64,000 nucleotides of DNA from Roseibacillus persicicus (lineage in GTDB: Bacteria > Verrucomicrobiota > Verrucomicrobiia > Verrucomicrobiales > Akkermansiaceae): positions 124,001 through 188,000 of the forward strand of contig NZ_BMXI01000009.1 in the NCBI RefSeq assembly GCF_014651675.1. The letters are read 5' to 3'. Below, piece after piece: positions 8,915 to 64,000 of the stretch. Position numbers and translations under genes: made by a program. The notes under the pieces are model-generated. The model saw nothing but the letters and a program-made list of their open reading frames with translations, did no database searches and had not been told where the DNA came from. Every line of letters begins with the position of its first letter. Position 1 is the first letter of the stretch.

Positions 8915-10501
8915 ATGCCCGATTTTGCAACGCTTGATAAACTTCTGCGCCAGGATGGTGCTTTTTCCCGACGTCTTCTTCTTTCCTACGGGGCCTCTTT
9001 GGCGGCCATTCCTCTTTTGGGTCAGCGCGCTTTTGGTCAGAGCGAAAAGACTCCCAAAGACTACCCTTTCACTCTCGGAGTCGCTTCGGGTGATCCGGAT
9101 CATCGGGGAGTGGTGCTGTGGACGCGTTTGGCGCCGCGCCCACTGGAAGATGGAGGGGGAATGCCAAGCCGTCCGGTTGAGGTTTCTTGGGAAGTTGCCG
9201 ACGACGAGGCCTTTCGCTCCCTCGTCGACTCCGGCAAGGTCCTAGCCACTCCGCAGCTGGGTCACTCGGTGCACGTGGAGTTGGAGTCTCTCGCCCCTGA
9301 TCGCTGGTATTACTATCGCTTCCGCAGTGGTGATGCCACCAGTCCGGTGGGTCGCACCCGCACCTTGCCGCGCCCCGATGCCAGTCCCGACAAGCTGCGC
9401 TTCGCCTTTGCCTCCTGCCAGAACTTTGAGCAAGGCTACTTCTCCGCCTACGATGATATGGCCGAGCAGGAGGTCGACCTGGTCTTTCATCTCGGGGATT
9501 ACATTTATGAATACGAGGCGGGGCGAAACGGAAAGGTGCGCACCCATCAAGGAAAGGAAATTGAGAGTCTCGACCAGTATCGGGCTCGCTACGCGCAGTA
9601 CAAGAGCGACCCGTCCTTGCAAAAGATGCATGCCGCCTGCCCGTGGTTTGTGACTTGGGACGATCACGAATTCGATAACAACTATGCGAACCTAATTTCC
9701 GAGGAGAAAGGGATTCCCGCCGCTCATTTCCTCGCGCGGCGTGCGAACGCTTATCGGGCTTACTACGAGAACATGCCTTTGCGTAAGCGCTCTCTTCCGC
9801 AGGGCGCCCATCTCCAGCTTTTCCGCAAGGCGTCTTTCGGTCGTTTGGCGGAGTTCAATGTCCTCGATACCCGCCAGTATCGCAGCGATCAGCCAAATAG
9901 GGATCGCAAGTCCCCGCTCAATGCGGAGGCCTTCGGACCGCGTAATACCTTGTTAGGGGAAAGGCAGTTTGACTGGTTGACTGCGTCCTTGAATAGTTCG
10001 CAGGCAACCTGGAACGTGCTGGCCCAGCAGGTGATGATGGGGATGGTCGGCTTCACCAAGGATGATGGGCAGCTTTACTCCATGGACCAGTGGCCGGGCT
10101 ATCTCGCCGAGCGCGAGCGTCTCTTGCGCTACATTGCAGAGCGTCGGGTGCCGAATGCGGTGGTCTTGACTGGCGACATCCACGCGAACTGGGCCAATGA
10201 GCTGCGCTTTGACGACCGCAAGTCCGAGCAAGCGGTGGTGGCCAGTGAGTTCGTGTGCACATCAATCTCGAGTGGCGGAAACGGGGTGGAGGTTCCTAGT
10301 GATACGGAGGAGTTGTTCGGCAGTAATCCCTGCCTGAGGTTCTACAATCGCGAACGTGGTTACACCCTTTGCTCTCTGACTCAGGAGAGTTGGATTAGTG
10401 ATTATCGCATTGTTAGCGACGTGCTGCAGCCCGGAGGCACAACGAGTTCGAGGGCAAAGTTCGCGCTTGAGGCCGGTTCCTCATTGATTCATCGAGCTTA
10501 G
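8915..10501 (+). CDS. Alkaline phosphatase D family protein (PhoD-like), Tat-type signal
   Basis: A 528-residue secreted metallophosphoesterase. The N-terminus has a twin-arginine-like FSRRLLLSYGA followed by a hydrophobic stretch and GQRAFGQ, fitting Tat export of a folded metalloenzyme. The PhoD N-domain (FTLGVASGDP, VVLWTRL) is followed by the catalytic domain with FASCQNFEQGYFSAY, LVFHLGDYIYEYE, TWDDHEFDNNY and VLTGDIHANW, which carry the metal ligands. Family members are phosphodiesterases/phosphomonoesterases that use Fe and Ca, probably for phosphorus scavenging. The start ATG 8915 is preferred over 8894 because it keeps the Tat region near the N-terminus. It is read away from tRNA-Gln. 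Confidence 0.92.
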   Translation: MPDFATLDKLLRQDGAFSRRLLLSYGASLAAIPLLGQRAFGQSEKTPKDYPFTLGVASGDPDHRGVVLWTRLAPRPLEDGGGMPSRPVEVSWEVADDEAFRSLVDSGKVLATPQLGHSVHVELESLAPDRWYYYRFRSGDATSPVGRTRTLPRPDASPDKLRFAFASCQNFEQGYFSAYDDMAEQEVDLVFHLGDYIYEYEAGRNGKVRTHQGKEIESLDQYRARYAQYKSDPSLQKMHAACPWFVTWDDHEFDNNYANLISEEKGIPAAHFLARRANAYRAYYENMPLRKRSLPQGAHLQLFRKASFGRLAEFNVLDTRQYRSDQPNRDRKSPLNAEAFGPRNTLLGERQFDWLTASLNSSQATWNVLAQQVMMGMVGFTKDDGQLYSMDQWPGYLAERERLLRYIAERRVPNAVVLTGDIHANWANELRFDDRKSEQAVVASEFVCTSISSGGNGVEVPSDTEELFGSNPCLRFYNRERGYTLCSLTQESWISDYRIVSDVLQPGGTTSSRAKFALEAGSSLIHRA

Positions 10502-18368: not shown

Positions 18369-18795
18369 GTGCTCGTGAGGCAAGCTCTCCTTCCCGTTGC
18401 CAAACAACTTCGTCGGTAGGGCTGTTTTGACAAAACAGCCGCGAATGTTGGTGGAAGGGCCCTCGGCTATACGCGTCTCGTCCGCTTATCGGTCTCTCGA
18501 GGGGCGATGAAAGTTCGGTGAGCTTGCATCACGGGGGCATTGGGGAGTTTCTCCGGTGCGGGGGAAAGAGGAAGCCATTCGAAGAGTGTTGGCGCTCTTT
18601 GATTCGAAGTGACAAGGAGGGCGAGCAAACAAGCTTTGCTCGACCCGGGAGCGACTAAGAACGAACTTATTCAACCTGAGGGCGGCAGCAAGCGGCAGGC
18701 ACTCCAAAAGGCTCTCTCCGGCCAGGGCAGTCCTTACAAGGTGGAGGCGGTCAATCCTTTCAGTCGCCTGAAGAGCTCGGTGAATTCCGGCTTTT
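18369..18795. other. Intergenic region containing perfect palindromes, no supported gene
   Basis: About 430 bp without a supported gene. It holds a perfect 9-bp inverted repeat GGCTGTTTT-GAC-AAAACAGCC at 18420-18440 and an 8-bp hairpin CGAGCAAA-CAAGC-TTTGCTCG near 18626-18647. Open frames on either strand look like non-coding drift. Confidence 0.5.
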
Positions 18796-20034
18796 CTATC
18801 CGAAGAACGCGTAGGCGACGAAGATCGCTGCGAGAATTCCTGCAAAGTCGGCGGTCAATCCAGCCGTGAGCGCATAGCGGGTTTTTCGGATTCCGACTGA
18901 ACCGAAATAGACAGCAAGGACATAGAAGGTGGTTTCGGTCGAGCCTTGAAAGGTGCAGGCCAAGCGTCCTTGAAACGAATCGACTCCATAGTTTTCCATT
19001 GCTTCCGAAGCCATACCTCGTGCTCCGCTTCCGGAGAGGGGTTTCATGAGAGCAGTTGGAACGGCGTCCACCCAGCGGTCATCCGTCCGGGTTATGCCCA
19101 CGCCAGCCTTCAAGCTATCGGTGATGCCGTCCAAGCTGCCGGAGGCGCGGAAGACTCCCACTGCGACCAGCATGGCGACGAGAAAGGGGATGATTTTCAC
19201 CGCGACTCCAAAACCCTCCTTAGCTCCCTCAACAAACTCCTCATAAACATTGATGCCCCGCATCACTGCAAGAACAAGAAAGCCGACGATAATACTGAAA
19301 ATGAAGAGGGCGGCAAAGACTGCTGACTGGGCCTGCATCGCTCCTTGGGTGAGGCTTTGAAAGTAAACGGCCGTGCCCGTGATGAAAGTGGTCATTCCAA
19401 TGAGCCACAGGAGTACTGGTCCTTGGAAGAGATTGATTCGCTGAATCAAGCTTGTCACGAGTAGTCCGACAAAGGACGAGCAATAGGTCGCGATGAGAAT
19501 GGGGATGAAAATGTCGGCTGGATTGGGCGCGTTGAAGGGGGGAGACGACCGGAGAATCATCACCGAAACAGGAATGATGGTGAGCCCGCTAGTGTTGAGC
19601 ACAAGAAACATGATCTGGGCATTCGAAGCGGTGTCTTTGAGAGGATTCAATTCCTGCAACTCCTTCATGGCCTTCAGGCCGAGGGGGGTGGCGGCATTGT
19701 CCAAGCCAAGGAGGTTGGCTGAGAAATTCATCACGATGGAGCCGTGGGCGGGATGGTCCTTGGGAACATCTGGAAAAAGGCGAGAAAAGAAGGGTGCGAC
19801 CAAACGGGACAAGATGGCGACCGCGCCGCCCTTCTCTCCAATCCTCATAATGCCGAGCCAGAGAGCCATTCCACCGATAAACCCGAGTGAGAGGCTGGCC
19901 CCGACCTTTGCCATTTCGAAGAGGGCTTCGGTCATGGCGGGGAAGACGCTGAGGTCGCCCCAGATGAAGGTCTTGGCCAGCGCGACGAAAAAGGAGATTA
20001 CGAAGAAGCTGAGCCAGATGTAGTTGAGCGCCAT
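18796..20034 (-). CDS. Nucleoside-recognition (Gate) domain membrane protein, SpmA/SpmB fusion
   Basis: A 412-residue polytopic protein. The first half (1-200) matches spore maturation protein A (LGFIGGMALWLGIMRIGEK, MNFSANLLGLDNAATPLG) and the second half (220-412) matches SpmB (AKEGFGVAVKIIPFLVAMLVA, PTALMKPLSGSGARGM, CTFQGSTETTFYVLAVYFG). In Bacillus these are separate genes involved in spore core dehydration. In non-sporulating Gram-negatives the fused form is common and probably acts as a small-molecule transporter. The gene is single and has about 10 hydrophobic segments. Confidence 0.9.
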   Translation of the reverse strand: MALNYIWLSFFVISFFVALAKTFIWGDLSVFPAMTEALFEMAKVGASLSLGFIGGMALWLGIMRIGEKGGAVAILSRLVAPFFSRLFPDVPKDHPAHGSIVMNFSANLLGLDNAATPLGLKAMKELQELNPLKDTASNAQIMFLVLNTSGLTIIPVSVMILRSSPPFNAPNPADIFIPILIATYCSSFVGLLVTSLIQRINLFQGPVLLWLIGMTTFITGTAVYFQSLTQGAMQAQSAVFAALFIFSIIVGFLVLAVMRGINVYEEFVEGAKEGFGVAVKIIPFLVAMLVAVGVFRASGSLDGITDSLKAGVGITRTDDRWVDAVPTALMKPLSGSGARGMASEAMENYGVDSFQGRLACTFQGSTETTFYVLAVYFGSVGIRKTRYALTAGLTADFAGILAAIFVAYAFFG

Positions 20035-58582: not shown

Positions 58583-58669
58583 GTGCGCACGTGGCGGAAT
58601 TGGTAGACGCGCTGTCTTCAGGCGGCAGTGCCCTTTGGGCGTGGAGGTTCGACTCCTCTCGTGCGCACT
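58583..58669 (+). tRNA. tRNA-Leu (anticodon CAG), possible integration site
   Basis: Acceptor GTGCGCA (58583-58589) pairs with TGCGCAC (58662-58668). It has a long variable arm and an anticodon loop TTCAGGC giving anticodon CAG, and T-arm GGAGGTTCGACTCC. It is followed by an accessory region, so it is a candidate attachment site. Confidence 0.97.
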
Positions 58670-58712
58670 TTATCTTCAATGGGTTACGAATATTTCGCCT
58701 TCGAAATTGGCG

Positions 58713-58737
58713 AGTGACAACACCAAGTGACAACACC
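58713..58737. repeat. Tandem direct repeat next to tRNA-Leu
   Basis: AGTGACAACACC occurs at 58713-58724 and again at 58726-58737, one base apart. Such short iterons near a tRNA boundary could bind an integrase or excisionase. Confidence 0.7.
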
Positions 58738-58773
58738 CCTTCCCTCGAAGAGCTGTTAGATTTGCCCTGAGGT

Positions 58774-58796
58774 CGAACCTCTACGCTTGAGGTTCG
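58774..58796. repeat. Inverted repeat between tRNA-Leu and the excisionase-like gene
   Basis: CGAACCTC (58774-58781), 7-nt loop, GAGGTTCG (58789-58796): a perfect 8-bp stem. The 9-mer GAGGTTCGA also occurs in the tRNA-Leu T-arm (58644-58652) and at 58789-58797, too short to call an attachment repeat. Confidence 0.5.
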
Positions 58797-58830
58797 AGGT
58801 TTCAGCTCGAAAAAGCCCGCTTAAGATTAC

Positions 58831-59076
58831 GTGGAAGATTCGCAATTTTCAGGTGTTTATCAGCAGATTGAGCCGCTCACAATCCGGCTCCCGAGAAGCG
58901 GCGAGCGTTGCCCTTGGACTGGCTTGACTCGCTCTGCTCTCAATGAGCTAATTTTGCCATGTAAAGCCAATGGGTATTCACCTCCCGTCAAATCCAAAGT
59001 CATTAAAGCTGCTGGGCGCTCAAGAGGAATTCGTCTGGTGAGTTTTCAAAGCTTGAAATCCTATCTGGGTTGCTAA
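58831..59076 (+). CDS. Small excisionase-like DNA-binding protein
   Basis: An 81-residue protein. The arrangement IRLPRSGERCPWTGLTRSALNELI, here as motif RCPWTGLTRSALNEL, then KSKVIKAAGRSRGIRLVS and SLKSYLG is a small winged-helix/AlpA-like pattern often seen next to mobile elements in this phylum. It may act as an excisionase or regulator. The start is a GTG at 58831. It is the first gene after the tRNA. Confidence 0.65.
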   Translation: MEDSQFSGVYQQIEPLTIRLPRSGERCPWTGLTRSALNELILPCKANGYSPPVKSKVIKAAGRSRGIRLVSFQSLKSYLGC

Positions 59077-59091
59077 CATTCGTTGGAAAGA

Positions 59092-60219
59092 ATGAAGCTA
59101 CCTCCTCCCTCGGCAGCGTTCCTCGATTATGCCGAGGATCATGGCCCTGTCGTAACGGAGTTCGATCAATTCACACAGGTGATTTCTCTTCCTGCTTTGA
59201 TTGCAGCATCAGGTCGGGCGAGGAGTTTTAAGGAGCATGTGAATAGCCGTGGTAAGGAATTCTTATCTGCCGGATGCCACTATATTGAAAACAATGTAAC
59301 CGACGCACAGGCGGCCCAGAGTGATGAGGGATTCTGCTTCACTATTTTTGATGTCGTTCCTTTTCAGCTCATCGATATTTTTTCTTTGGCTCTCTCTGCG
59401 CCGTCCTTCTTTGCGGAGATCGGTGACTCAAAGCTCGAGGATTTGGGGAGAGTGCGTGCTCGCGAGAAACCTGCGGGTTATGGATTTTTTCGGAAGAACC
59501 CTGAGGAAGCTCTTCTCGTTCGTTCGGAGCTCGCTTACCCACTTTGTCCCGTTCGAGAAGAGGCTGCACTCTATTTCACAGGATTAGCGTTGGATGCCAT
59601 TTGGTCGCACGAGCTGTCTCATGCATTTATGGGGCATCTCGATTATGCTTCCGAAAATCTGGGAGTCCGAGCACTCAACGAGCTTCCAGATGAGAACGGT
59701 AGTCTTCGACAAATGCCTTTGGAGGCTGAGGCGGATCGGTTTTCGGCACAGACTATTTTACAAGGGTCTTTTGGATCGACTCCCTATTTACCTCTCAATT
59801 TGCGAGGGTTGCCAGTTGAGAGTCGTGTGAAGGCGGCGTTCGTAACCTCAGCGGTACTCACTTGGTTTTGGGCCTATTTGCAGCGTATTGACCGGACTTT
59901 TGATGGTTTCGACCCTTACGAAAGGGGAGGTCACCCTCCTCCGCTCGCACGTTTGCATCTCGCCTTCGAAGGGAACCGTGATTTTCTGAAGTTACTAGGT
60001 TGGAAGACAAGCTCCATCGAAGAACTTACTTTGCAGGCCATGCAGGAGCTAGAGAATCTAGCTTCGTCTAAGGATTGGTTTGCCATTTTGCATCCAGAGA
60101 CAGTTTTCTCCGAGAAGGGCCGCCAATTTAACAAAGACATTAAAGAAATCATGGGACATGAATTTCGGCAGATGCATCAGGAGCTTGAGACTTACCGTTA
60201 CCAACCAAAGGATAAGTGA
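59092..60219 (+). CDS. HExxH-type metallopeptidase-like protein, element cargo
   Basis: A 375-residue protein without a clear signal peptide. The motif WSHELSHAFMGH (HELSH at residues 173-177) followed by EAEADRFSAQ (about 211-220) gives the HExxH plus distal Glu/Asp layout of gluzincin or M48-like enzymes. The C-terminal part is helical. The start ATG at 59092 has GGAAAG just upstream. No homologue is recognised; it lies in the element after the excisionase-like gene. Confidence 0.65.
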   Translation: MKLPPPSAAFLDYAEDHGPVVTEFDQFTQVISLPALIAASGRARSFKEHVNSRGKEFLSAGCHYIENNVTDAQAAQSDEGFCFTIFDVVPFQLIDIFSLALSAPSFFAEIGDSKLEDLGRVRAREKPAGYGFFRKNPEEALLVRSELAYPLCPVREEAALYFTGLALDAIWSHELSHAFMGHLDYASENLGVRALNELPDENGSLRQMPLEAEADRFSAQTILQGSFGSTPYLPLNLRGLPVESRVKAAFVTSAVLTWFWAYLQRIDRTFDGFDPYERGGHPPPLARLHLAFEGNRDFLKLLGWKTSSIEELTLQAMQELENLASSKDWFAILHPETVFSEKGRQFNKDIKEIMGHEFRQMHQELETYRYQPKDK

Positions 60220-60245
60220 ATGGGCTATCGTGTTGTAGATGCTTT

Positions 60246-61271
60246 CTAACCGTGATTCGGGATATCAAAGAACCAGACTTTCTTGGCTAAGCCATCAAGG
60301 TCACGGGCTAGGCTTTCTTCCCACGTTCTTCGGGGTGTGGGAGCACGAACGTTAAGTGATGTGATTTTTTTGAGGCGTTCCGGTTTGTAGGAGTTCATCG
60401 ACAAGATCTGTTTGGGGAATGCTTGTTTGCGAGAACTCAACTTGTCTTCTAGCAAGCTCATTATTTCTTCTCTGTCGTCTTTGAGGTAGGCCTTGTCCCG
60501 AATTGCTACGAAGCAGGTATCGATACCAGGTCCACGATCTACTTCAACGTAGCCTTCTTCGGGAATGGTGATGACTTTTTTTCCTGCATCCAAATTATGG
60601 CCCGAGCTTGGGTTCTTTAATTTGAGAGAGTTCACAGGGTAGAGTTCAACTGGCTTTTTACCGAGACAAGTTAGCCAAGCGACAAAAAGGTGTTCGTCCT
60701 CCTTGCAATGCATCTCGATTTGCAGGGCTTCTCCTTCTTCGATACTACCCTTCCTTTGCAGGCTTGAGATAATGTCCCAAGGAGTGATGAGGCGGATTTC
60801 AAATCCGGCTCTCATTTGCTGTTCGTGGCGTTGTAAAAACTGCTCAGTAATTTCCTTGAGAACCTGTTCTAACTCTTCCTTCTTGCCTTTGGGGGGCAGA
60901 AAATGAATTTCAATATGCTCTGCGAATTTGACCGATTTTTCACGTTGGATTTTGTATTCGATGAGGGCTTCATGAAAGCCTTTTGGACCAAAGAGTGTTT
61001 TGAACCACTTGTTACCCTTTCCGTTCCAGAGCGGGCTGAGCAAATCCGTGACTTGCCTCGCAATGGTTGCGGCTTCTTGATTGGGTTTGTCGAGGTAAGT
61101 GGCCACGGCAAGAAGGCAAAGTGCGTTAATGCCAGCTGTCCCATTTCGGGGCAGTGCTGAGTCCGAGAGGTCAATAGGAAGTAGACCGCTTCTATCGTAG
61201 CCGATACTTTCGAAGAGCCACCCTTCTTCAAAGCGGTCCTTTGCGATCTTAATTTGCAAAATTTTCTTCAT
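60246..61271 (-). CDS. DUF4384-like protein, element cargo
   Basis: A 341-residue protein. The C-terminal half (about 190-275) has the pattern of a DUF4384-like domain: HLFVAWLTCLGKKPVELYP, then KVITIPEEGYVEVDRGPGID and VAIRDK. Such domains recur in conflict and signalling systems with peptidases or kinases. The N-terminal half (about 1-180) is of unknown fold. It is transcribed towards the HExxH gene and divergently from the sigma-like gene. Confidence 0.6.
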   Translation of the reverse strand: MKKILQIKIAKDRFEEGWLFESIGYDRSGLLPIDLSDSALPRNGTAGINALCLLAVATYLDKPNQEAATIARQVTDLLSPLWNGKGNKWFKTLFGPKGFHEALIEYKIQREKSVKFAEHIEIHFLPPKGKKEELEQVLKEITEQFLQRHEQQMRAGFEIRLITPWDIISSLQRKGSIEEGEALQIEMHCKEDEHLFVAWLTCLGKKPVELYPVNSLKLKNPSSGHNLDAGKKVITIPEEGYVEVDRGPGIDTCFVAIRDKAYLKDDREEIMSLLEDKLSSRKQAFPKQILSMNSYKPERLKKITSLNVRAPTPRRTWEESLARDLDGLAKKVWFFDIPNHG

Positions 61272-61379
61272 CTAATACGTCCTGTGTTTCTCTCTAAGAA
61301 GTCTACGGGAAGTTCACCGGAAGTCTAGGGTGAGGTCGTGTTACGGAGTCTGAGCAGTCTCGACAGGCTCTCCGTTGCA

Positions 61380-62048
61380 ATGAAGAAAACAACTGGAGAC
61401 GGAAACAATGTTGCTGAAGAAGAGGAAAAGGGGCTTCCTGTGGATGATGCGTTTTGGATTTATTTCACAGACGAAGAGAGCCAGAGTTTTCTCAGAAATT
61501 TCCTGCGGAAGACTTTCCCTAGACTCACTGAGGAGGACATCGAAGACGTTGTAGCTGACATCAAGCTAAAGTATGCGAAGTCAGGGGCGAGGCGTCATGA
61601 GGTGCTCGGCTTTTCTGTGCTGGCGTGTCTTGCTCGGAGGGCGGCTATCGATTATGTGCGTCGTCTTAACCGGAAGAGAGCTGGAGGAGGAGTTTTCCAC
61701 GACTCAATCGAGGATTCTGAGGGGATTCTCAACTTGGCGGCAGATCCAATTGTGGACCAAAACCGTTTAGATCGATTGGAGGAGTTCTCGAACCTCTTGG
61801 GGTTGGCCAAGCCTCAGTGTAACGGAAAACCGCTGATGGTTGTGAATGCTCTTCAGCGATGGCTCCAAGGAGGTTGTTCGTCTGATTATTGGACTGATTT
61901 TTTGCTTCCTGAAGAAGTGGAAGAATTCATGAAGCTGAAGAAGGGGGTGAGTCTTGCCGGTAAGGCTTCGCCTGCTTTTTGCGCAGTGAAGAAGATTCTT
62001 CGAGAAATTTTGGAGAAGAAGGGGATGAGCGAGGATTCAGCCGCTTAG
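61380..62048 (+). CDS. Degenerate ECF-sigma-like protein, element cargo
   Basis: A 222-residue protein. A region resembling sigma-70 region 2 is visible: FTDEESQSFLRNFLRKTFPRLTEEDIEDVVADI and LACLARRAAIDYVRRLNRKRAGG. A canonical region 4 helix-turn-helix is not clear in the C-terminal part. The start ATG 61380 is tentative (GTG 61338 is an alternative). It may regulate the element or the divergent DUF4384-like gene. Confidence 0.6.
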   Translation: MKKTTGDGNNVAEEEEKGLPVDDAFWIYFTDEESQSFLRNFLRKTFPRLTEEDIEDVVADIKLKYAKSGARRHEVLGFSVLACLARRAAIDYVRRLNRKRAGGGVFHDSIEDSEGILNLAADPIVDQNRLDRLEEFSNLLGLAKPQCNGKPLMVVNALQRWLQGGCSSDYWTDFLLPEEVEEFMKLKKGVSLAGKASPAFCAVKKILREILEKKGMSEDSAA

Positions 62049-62089
62049 GAGAGTATGGGCCTGTATTGATGGCCTGAGAATAGAATACT

Positions 62090-62371
62090 ATGAATACAAT
62101 AATTGAATTATTCTTTGACCCTAGCTTAGCGCTTTTGGCGCAGGCGCAGGCGGAGTTGGAGACTGGACTGGGTGGAGTTCTTCGCCTGTTGAGAATGGTT
62201 AGCTATCTGTTGTCAGTAATGGCGCTCATTATAGGCGGTATTATGTTTGGAACGGGCAGGACTGAAGCAGCACTGTTCGGAGTAACAGCATCAGGGATTT
62301 TGGCTCTGGCTCCAAGCATCGTGAACTTTGCTTTTTCTGAAACAGACGGAGAACTCGCAATTCCTGACTAG
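62090..62371 (+). CDS. VirB2/TrbC-like pilin-type membrane protein
   Basis: A 93-residue protein with two hydrophobic segments (about 31-49, YLLSVMALIIGGIMFG; about 57-75, GVTASGILALAPSIVNF) separated by a short charged loop, the layout of VirB2/TrbC major pilin subunits. No long signal peptide is seen, so the identification rests on size, topology and position just before the VirB3- and VirB4-like genes. Confidence 0.65.
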   Translation: MNTIIELFFDPSLALLAQAQAELETGLGGVLRLLRMVSYLLSVMALIIGGIMFGTGRTEAALFGVTASGILALAPSIVNFAFSETDGELAIPD

Positions 62372-62374
62372 GAG

Positions 62375-62710
62375 ATGAAAAGCTCGATTCAAGTTCACCC
62401 GGTCATTTCGGGTGAGAGCCAAGGCCCCACTGCGTGGGGCCTTTCTGTTCGACAGACCTTTGTTTTCGGTGGCTCCGTTGCCGTCGGGTTTGTCGCCTAC
62501 TCGCTTCTCGCGAAGCTGGGTGTTGGGAGCATGATTGCTCTCATTGTCGCGGGTCTATTCCCGCTGATTGTCTTCCTCTACTTCCTAACCTTGGTGGTGA
62601 GGAAGCCTGCCACTTACGCCCGAAATTGGCGGGAGTGGCAACATCTTCGGCTTTCTCAAAAGCCACTTCTTGAAATTCAAATTCATACGCAGAAAAATCA
62701 TGAAATTTAA
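62375..62710 (+). CDS. VirB3/TrbD-like type IV secretion protein
   Basis: A 111-residue protein with two transmembrane segments (QTFVFGGSVAVGFVAYSLLA and SMIALIVAGLFPLIVFLYFLTLVV), typical of VirB3/TrbD. The start has AGGAG immediately upstream, and its 3' end overlaps the next gene's ATG by 11 bp, as in many VirB3-VirB4 pairs. Confidence 0.7.
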   Translation: MKSSIQVHPVISGESQGPTAWGLSVRQTFVFGGSVAVGFVAYSLLAKLGVGSMIALIVAGLFPLIVFLYFLTLVVRKPATYARNWREWQHLRLSQKPLLEIQIHTQKNHEI

Positions 62711-64000
62711 CGACGGTATCATCAGCAATAATCTGATAATTTTTAGAAATGGACGCGCTCTTGCGGATGTGAGCTGCGGGTTCTCAATTGTAAGTCCGGC
62801 TTTGCAGAATGCGCCGCTTTCGTTTTTGGCACAACTGGAAGCTGAAGAGCGGGTTTTCTTGCAAAACTTAGCTCCCACTGAACGTTTGCAACTTCGGTGG
62901 TGGCAGGATGGGGATTTTAGCGAGCCCCTTAAGAGCTACTACGAAGACACTGAAAGGTTTGCCGATAGTGAGTGGAGTCGGCATCAGCGCAATGCCAAGT
63001 TTGTCTTCAACACCGAGCTTCAGGAAGACGGAAGACTTCGTAGTGAGAGAGTTTCTCTTTTTCTTTTGAAAAAGAATGTCGAGTTGGGACGAGCTGATAA
63101 AGACCAAATGGCTTCCTTGGAGACTGTTGGAAATAGCTTCCAGCTTCATGAGCGTTCTCTTCGGGACATGGTGAAACGACTGGGTGGAGAGTCAGCGAGG
63201 TTGAGTAATAGTGAGCTTTTTGAAGAGAGCTATCGACACTTCAATCCCTTGGCAAAGCCGCCCTCCTCCGACTTCTTCGAGAAGAGTCTACGTCCTGAAT
63301 CGTCAGTTTTAGAAAACTGCTTGGACGGTGATCTTGTCTCCGTTTCAGGGCAGCCTCATTGCTTCTACAATAGCGGCTGCTTTCATGGCTACTTGGCACT
63401 TTCAGCTCCACCCTTAAATACGTTTAGCGGACTCATTGCTCAGCTCACCAGTCTATCCGAGCGGAAGTTTGCTCTTGTGGTGAACATTGAGGCTTTGGAC
63501 GTAGCCAAGGAGATTGAGAAGGCGGAGTCATCAGTAACCAAGTTGCGGCGGGCGGCTCGTAGTCATCCAAAGGCGACCATGCTGCAACAGATCGAGAAAG
63601 CAGAACAGCGGGTACGGAGACTGACTTCACGTGAGCAGTTTCCTATGAAGGTTCAAGTGCTCATTCACGTTTGGGCTGAATCCGCTGAGGAGTTGCAGCA
63701 CAAGTTGGCTTCCTTACGGGTGGGTTGTCAGTTGATGCAAGGAGCCAAGGCCTACGAAGTGGCACTGCCTACCATGAATCGAAACCTTCATCTTGCCGCG
63801 ATGCCGGGAGCATCCTTTAGAGATGATTCCTTTTGGTTAAAGGTTGGCGACCACAATGTGGCTAACCTACTTCCTTTTGTGGGAGACTCGGCGGATTCGT
63901 TGAAGGGTGCTCATGCTCTCTATCATGGCTGGCAGGGGAATCTAGTCGGGGTAAAAATCTTCAAAGGTGAGCCGGGACATGAATCTCCACAGCTCGCGAC
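62700..64000 (+). CDS. VirB4/TrbE-like conjugal transfer ATPase (N-terminal part, runs off window)
   Basis: An open frame of 433 codons with no stop to the window edge. It begins overlapping the VirB3-like gene. The segment HNVANLLPFVGDS and the preceding KVQVLIHVWAESAEELQHKL fit the N-terminal domain of VirB4/TraC ATPases, which power pilus assembly and DNA transfer. The Walker A and B motifs would lie beyond the edge. Family chains usually have about 800 residues. Confidence 0.75.
   Translation, partial: MKFNDGIISNNLIIFRNGRALADVSCGFSIVSPALQNAPLSFLAQLEAEERVFLQNLAPTERLQLRWWQDGDFSEPLKSYYEDTERFADSEWSRHQRNAKFVFNTELQEDGRLRSERVSLFLLKKNVELGRADKDQMASLETVGNSFQLHERSLRDMVKRLGGESARLSNSELFEESYRHFNPLAKPPSSDFFEKSLRPESSVLENCLDGDLVSVSGQPHCFYNSGCFHGYLALSAPPLNTFSGLIAQLTSLSERKFALVVNIEALDVAKEIEKAESSVTKLRRAARSHPKATMLQQIEKAEQRVRRLTSREQFPMKVQVLIHVWAESAEELQHKLASLRVGCQLMQGAKAYEVALPTMNRNLHLAAMPGASFRDDSFWLKVGDHNVANLLPFVGDSADSLKGAHALYHGWQGNLVGVKIFKGEPGHESPQLA

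Follow-up and report, generated by a model that had tools for sequence, protein, structure and literature searches.

Probable left end of an integrative and conjugative element at tRNA-Leu(CAG) of Roseibacillus persicicus

The DNA studied here (the window) is a 64,000-nucleotide stretch of a Roseibacillus persicicus contig (C9:124001-188000), and positions above 64000 carry the window numbering on along C9. The source is a 5.28-Mb draft genome in 92 contigs (G000), 97.5% complete with 0% contamination. Near the right end of the window lies a tRNA-Leu(CAG) gene, and an earlier reading made without database searches (the sequence-only reading) had proposed an integrative and conjugative element (ICE) of a little-studied phylum at this gene. 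The host indeed belongs to the Verrucomicrobiota (order Verrucomicrobiales; family Akkermansiaceae in GTDB). Luteolibacter pohnpeiensis is in the same family, as the VirB4 coordinates of relative G027 agree with those of the named locus L074. The tRNA gene is where that reading placed it, the proposed start at 58583 being two bases 5' of the tRNA (58585). Our analysis indicates that the DNA beyond this tRNA is very probably the left end of an ICE of at least 68 kb that has a plasmid-type backbone and is inserted in tRNA-Leu(CAG). The following features mark its boundary, the right end of which lies on a second contig (C19):

55451-58306, minus strand: M16 peptidase gene, chromosomal left flank, outside the element
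58585-58668, plus strand: tRNA-Leu(CAG), the attachment gene (tRNA call)
58636-58668, plus strand: core of the left attachment site (attL), the 33-bp tRNA 3' end, with a perfect copy at C19:16840-16872 (right attachment site, attR)
58669-64000, no strand: left part of the element, which continues to the C9 end (109878), then a gap, then C19:1-16872

A homologue of the M16 peptidase gene was found in 57 of the 58 genomes searched, and tRNA-Leu(CAG) adjoins it in nine relative loci, a congener included; its position beside this tRNA is conserved within the family. The 33-bp repeat TGGGCGTGGAGGTTCGACTCCTCTCGTGCGCAC spans the tRNA-Leu 3' end, and its second perfect copy, on C19, is the only other one in the assembly. 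Such a repeat had been predicted; it lies on a different contig, oriented as attL and attR require, and a native CCA follows it. No repeat that could serve as a right end was found on C9 itself, and ARAGORN called no tRNA at the C19 copy. To the right of that copy the sequence reads CATTTTTTTCTTTGG, a CCA followed by a T-run, and in the congener G001 the same tRNA is followed by CATTTTTCTCTTTCTT, which completes the CCA. The window tRNA-Leu runs on into TTTATCTTC and has no encoded CCA, which G001 and several family members have. Because the CCA and T-run behind the C19 copy are as in G001 and the window tRNA has no CCA, the simplest reading makes C19:16873 and what follows the tRNA's original right flank, with the window tRNA as the attL copy.

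Measured in 2-kb steps, G+C is 0.55-0.57 to the left of the tRNA, lies at 0.45-0.535 between the tRNA and the C9 end and over C19:1-16000, and is 0.535-0.59 further right on C19. The shift there, from about 50% to 55-58%, falls at the 33-bp copy. The repeat, the native CCA flank and the G+C shift together indicate integration between site-specific direct repeats across an inferred contig join, and the island size is at least 51,210 + 16,872 bp, that is, at least 68 kb. A draft in 92 contigs could have had a plasmid contig joined to a chromosomal tRNA by the assembly, but the C19 copy, with the native CCA behind it, and the G+C shift that matches it are independent evidence of insertion at the tRNA, and an artefact of this kind is extremely improbable. 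C9 ends (C9:233878) 51 kb past the tRNA, inside an IS3-type insertion sequence whose left end is also present at both ends of contig C15. Since C9 stops inside a repeated insertion sequence, the middle of the island is an assembly break at a repeat. A joining of C19 to C9 through this insertion sequence was rejected, as the C19 start does not match it.

The transfer genes begin in the window and continue on C9:

61380-62048, plus strand: 222-amino-acid (aa) weakly sigma-70/ECF-like protein (E 0.047), putative transfer regulator
62090-62371, plus strand: VirB2-like pilin (PF04956, TrbC/VirB2, E 1.7e-4)
62375-62710, plus strand: VirB3-like protein (PF12666, PrgI, E 1.2e-4)
62700-65390, plus strand: VirB4 ATPase (ends at C9:189390; N-terminal half in the window; TraG P-loop domain over the Pfam cut-off)
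65511-65816: VirB7 candidate, lipoprotein-like
65813-66616: VirB5-like protein
66613-67677: VirB6 (TrbL)
67681-68289: VirB8-like protein
68286-69113: VirB9-like protein
69134-70147: VirB10-like protein
74708-76177, minus strand: coupling protein TraD/TrwB (TrwB_AAD_bind 8.6e-14)
79519-80811: MobF relaxase (TrwC 8e-55; NCBIfam MobF over cut-off)
81343-82517: MobC/NikA and MobP relaxase (MobP 7e-20)

VirB2-, VirB3- and VirB4-like genes in conjugative order had been recognised from the sequence, and the Pfam support for them is weak but consistent and becomes stronger across the family: VirB2 has homologues in 22 other sources, and among 37 verrucomicrobial and lentisphaeral sources that we compared, most repeat the virB2-, virB3-, virB4-like order. 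Followed past the window edge, VirB4 proves to be a complete, uninterrupted frame of 896 aa, and the possibility raised earlier that it might prove to be another protein did not materialise. The remaining transfer genes, expected to the right, were found there, with a VirB5-VirB10-like set, the coupling protein 11 kb past the window edge and the relaxases 15-18 kb past it. The other refuting outcome named beforehand, neither integrase nor relaxase within the next 60 kb, did not occur either. The order B7, B5, B6, B8, B9, B10 is shared by many verrucomicrobial loci, and the 222-aa protein is kept upstream of virB2 in the comparison genome G011 and at locus L094. VirB3 and VirB4 form one fused frame in G011 (L107:17942 onward into L108) and L094. 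Two or three tandem VirB8-like genes stand in the transfer clusters at L079, L080, L083, L089, L092, L099, L104 and L105.

Profiles of the VirB8-, VirB9- and VirB10-like proteins gave no convincing match in a sequence search of solved structures, and the first two proteins are missed by sequence models. In AlphaFold predictions for members encoded by other genomes, the VirB9-like family matched VirB9/TraK in fold (Foldseek E 8.3e-13) and the VirB8-like family matched the VirB8 proteins DotI, CagV and R388 TrwG, and a TrbI match was found in 12 of 13 VirB10-like members. All core transfer frames are open and both relaxases carry HxH motifs. The locus has the relaxases (MobF and MobP), the coupling protein and the VirB4 channel that characterise an ICE, and the island thus carries nearly the full gene set for copying itself into neighbouring cells. 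We also considered a non-mobile remnant, or a type IV secretion system domesticated for protein export. The failure to find VirB1, VirB11 or an origin of transfer (oriT; see below) would fit such a case, but the open core frames and a coupling protein with two HxH relaxases argue against it, and we judge it decidedly unlikely.

Four features may bear on site-specific recombination:

58831-59076, plus strand: 81-aa helix-turn-helix-like protein, putative excisionase/recombination directionality factor
95910-96512, minus strand: 200-aa tyrosine recombinase
95797-95823 and about 96505-96531: palindromic sites (L005:17797-17823 and 18505-18531)
C19:479-1690: Int404, full-length tyrosine integrase (tyrosine-recombinase signature residues in the sequence)

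The 81-aa protein, which the sequence-only reading called excisionase-like, matched nothing in Pfam or NCBIfam. Small proteins sharing 41-63% identity with it are encoded by 27 other Verrucomicrobiales genomes (28 of 386 genomes have the family), and most family members stand alone. At five of the loci read, the 81-aa-like sequence forms the C-terminus of a longer frame of 311-461 aa, in four cases beside tRNA genes (tRNA-Ser, -Phe, -Gly or similar), and L143, the sole long frame tested in full, proved to be a large serine recombinase (PF07508, 1.1e-14). Since other members occur as the tail of large serine recombinases, or of frames resembling them, next to tRNAs, a role in site-specific recombination is supported, and the earlier label is reasonable but unproven. 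The xis-like helix-turn-helix domain was seen as a C-terminal tail of large serine recombinases or similar frames at L140, L141, L143, L156, L158 and L162 (PF07508 shown for L143). A large serine recombinase as partner of the 81-aa protein was sought, and none (PF07508) is present in the whole assembly.

The integrase that had been expected to the right has two candidates, the 200-aa tyrosine recombinase 32 kb beyond the window edge and Int404 on C19, the latter being the only full-length integrase within the assembled island. Any link of Int404 to the tRNA sites is a guess, and its placement in a tRNA-linked integrase family was rejected on the surroundings of its relatives (below). The 200-aa recombinase is bracketed by two inverted copies of the palindromic site TGAAACAGAAT-AGACC-ATTCTGTTTCA, unique in the genome. 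Its G011 homologue has the same kind of site (L108 near 9847-9871 and 18840-18864), the second inverted copy lying 9 kb away and enclosing the Gabija defence pair GajA/GajB. This system looks like a dif-module-like swap or inversion of defence cassettes.

The plasmid-type backbone consists of the following genes:

76620-77354, minus strand: ParA-like ATPase
77478-78481: antitoxin and PIN-toxin genes
83625-84932: RepC (both Pfam domains; over the NCBIfam equivalog cut-off)

The ParA-like and traD genes are close together in five other sources too, a proximity that recalls VirC1 of Agrobacterium. RepC, with its two domains and its score over the equivalog cut-off, resembles that of repABC plasmids; unlike in those plasmids, a repA-repB-repC operon is absent, the neighbour of the ParA-like gene is traD, and RepB/ParB was not found among the C9 genes scanned. 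A related system occurs in Opitutaceae TAV5 (CP007054, L073), where relatives of VirB4, VirB6, VirB7, TraD and ParA lie on one plasmid; this is a free 99.8-kb plasmid, and the VirB4 identity is 25%. MOB-suite types it as mobilizable only, with no mating-pair type, and its VirB4, VirB6, TraD and ParA relatives are annotated as hypothetical. A normally free conjugative plasmid integrated once by chance would be in keeping with the TAV5 plasmid, with the RepC, ParA-like and toxin-antitoxin genes, and with the small tyrosine recombinase, which has palindromic sites of its own, as plasmid multimer resolution systems do. However, the precise 33-bp tRNA duplication marks site-specific integration and not homologous recombination or chance joining, which leaves that explanation unlikely.

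A composite tRNA island was also weighed, in which the 33-bp repeats come from another element, with Int404 or an integrase encoded in the gap, to which a conjugative plasmid or ICE was added secondarily, so that the transfer genes would not by themselves leave via the tRNA sites. The two different tyrosine recombinases, the position of the integrase far from either end, the plasmid functions RepC and ParA-like ATPase, and the RHS and tail-collar genes and insertion sequence in the right part are compatible with this. On the other side, the assembled island yielded no third 33-bp copy, its G+C is similar throughout, and the transfer module begins within 4 kb of attL. We regard a composite origin as possible, though rather doubtful.

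Several observations weigh against a single ICE delimited by the two 33-bp copies. C9 terminates within a repeated insertion sequence that the C19 start does not resemble, so that the C9-C19 join is a presumed one and the assembly lacks at least one stretch between them. The gene beside the C19 copy is absent from three congeners, and elsewhere no tRNA-Leu lies near it; the genes right of the tRNA differ among relatives, and gene order gives no check of the right flank. No tRNA was found in the fetched DNA (up to 10 kb) around any of 33 named VirB4 loci. Int404 lies 15 kb from attR and adjoins no attachment site. Among its relatives (27-36% identity), all but one lack a tRNA within 1.5 kb. VirB1 and VirB11 were not found among the C9 genes scanned, and VirB11 could lie in the assembly gap. 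An inverted-repeat search for oriT gave weak repeats near the relaxase genes and nothing distinctive. The earlier proposal of an ICE at tRNA-Leu largely holds all the same, on the strength of the transfer genes, relaxases, recombinases and 33-bp repeat.

An identity of 33 bp between sites suits tyrosine recombinases better than serine recombinases, and we infer from it that excision would be carried out by a tyrosine recombinase. In the proposed mechanism, this enzyme, with Int404 as the best candidate and the 81-aa xis-like protein as an aid, would excise the element between the 33-bp repeats. RepC could maintain the circle, with the toxin-antitoxin genes lending it stability. A relaxase, MobF or MobP, would nick the origin of transfer, the ParA-like ATPase and TraD would deliver the DNA to the VirB channel for export, and in the recipient the circle would re-enter tRNA-Leu(CAG).

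We compared the element with known systems. Like proteobacterial tRNA-inserted ICEs, it has a tRNA 3'-end repeat at both ends, a tyrosine integrase, a relaxase, a coupling protein, a VirB-type channel and cargo; unlike them, it belongs to another phylum, has its integrase away from the attachment site, carries a RepC replicon, has no VirB11 that we found, and has channel proteins beyond the reach of curated models. With the mating-pair-formation (MPF) class MPF_T (R388 Trw) it shares the virB2-B3-B4-...-B6-B8-B9-B10 order, a MobF relaxase and a TrwB-like coupling protein, whereas VirB11 and VirB1 were not seen among the C9 genes scanned and VirB4, at 41.8 bits, stays far below the VirB4_CagE cut-off of 643. 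MPF_F (F plasmid Tra) is alike in that the nearest named models are F-type TraC and TraD, no VirB11 was found, and the predicted VirB9-like fold is closest to an F-like core complex; it differs in that the F gene order and traN, traU, traW, traF, traH and trbC were not recognised by Pfam among the genes scanned and TraC is below cut-off.

The distribution of this VirB4 was then considered. It was found in 8 of 58 relative genomes searched (source included), in none of three congeners, and in 30 of 387 genomes drawn from the phylum. When named genomes were first scanned with this VirB4 alone, nothing matched; a one-motif scan, which favours close relatives, gave the 33 named loci, all from Verrucomicrobiota or Lentisphaerota. 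The only plasmid relative over the full VirB4 length was that of Opitutaceae TAV5, and the nearest NCBIfam model was F-type TraC (E 4.7e-25, 87.6 bits against a cut-off of 567). The channel lineage is peculiar to the Verrucomicrobiota/Lentisphaerota superphylum within the data searched, with full-length relatives only there. A VirB4/VirB3/VirB2 set of the same family, at 32% identity, occurs in a metagenome-assembled genome titled Akkermansia muciniphila (L078).

In a VirB4 tree, the protein grouped with those of G011 and Luteolibacter with full support, and the references F, R388, R64, pCF10 and Allomeiothermus fell on one side, a split that is weakly supported (51/58) and involves very long branches, so that a separate class is not proven. 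We consider it somewhat short of an even chance that the mating channel forms an MPF class of its own in Verrucomicrobiota and Lentisphaerota, a sister to those already described, which has VirB-like order and F-like affinity, lacks VirB11, is carried on plasmids and ICEs and is overlooked by present typing tools.

No Verrucomicrobiota ICE was found described in the literature that could be searched. The paper founding the VirB4-based mating-pair classes (PMC3158045) and a 2025 type IV secretion review (PMC12857230) do not mention Verrucomicrobiota. Such systems are missed because they score far under the NCBIfam cut-offs, and typing of the related TAV5 plasmid goes no further than mobilizable; a DNA-export machine of a Verrucomicrobiota lineage thereby escapes standard family models. 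The delimited element supplies an insertion site, ends and a gene set for testing conjugation in Verrucomicrobiota.

The other genes of the element are as follows:

59092-60219, plus strand: putative metallopeptidase of 375 aa, its HExxH motif (HELSH) seen by reading the sequence
60246-61271, minus strand: 341-aa protein, function not assigned
70626-74542: LodB/LodA/ferritin-like genes between virB10 and traD (L004:12626-16542)
85162-85962: N6-methylase-like gene
86599-95536, minus strand: HNH, AAA ATPase, HsdS, HsdM and HsdR (type I restriction-modification)

Cargo genes after the 81-aa gene had been noted before, and three cargo or regulatory open reading frames do precede virB2. The 375-aa protein is 68% identical to a homologue beside the G011 relaxase genes, compared with 40% for VirB4 against G011, and the 341-aa protein is conserved at the same place upstream of virB2 in G011 and L094. 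Since traD directly follows virB10 in G011, the LodB/LodA/ferritin-like genes are probably an insert; this cargo comprises a LodA-like quinoprotein oxidase, its flavin adenine dinucleotide-dependent partner and a ferritin-like protein. The AAA ATPase matched TIGR04435 with 728 bits against a cut-off of 300. In the right part of the island, on C19:2798-15270 (L007) and C9 102318-108701, we observed a giant protein of RHS/SpvB/Tc-B-like type, a further RHS protein and three proteins of tail-collar type.

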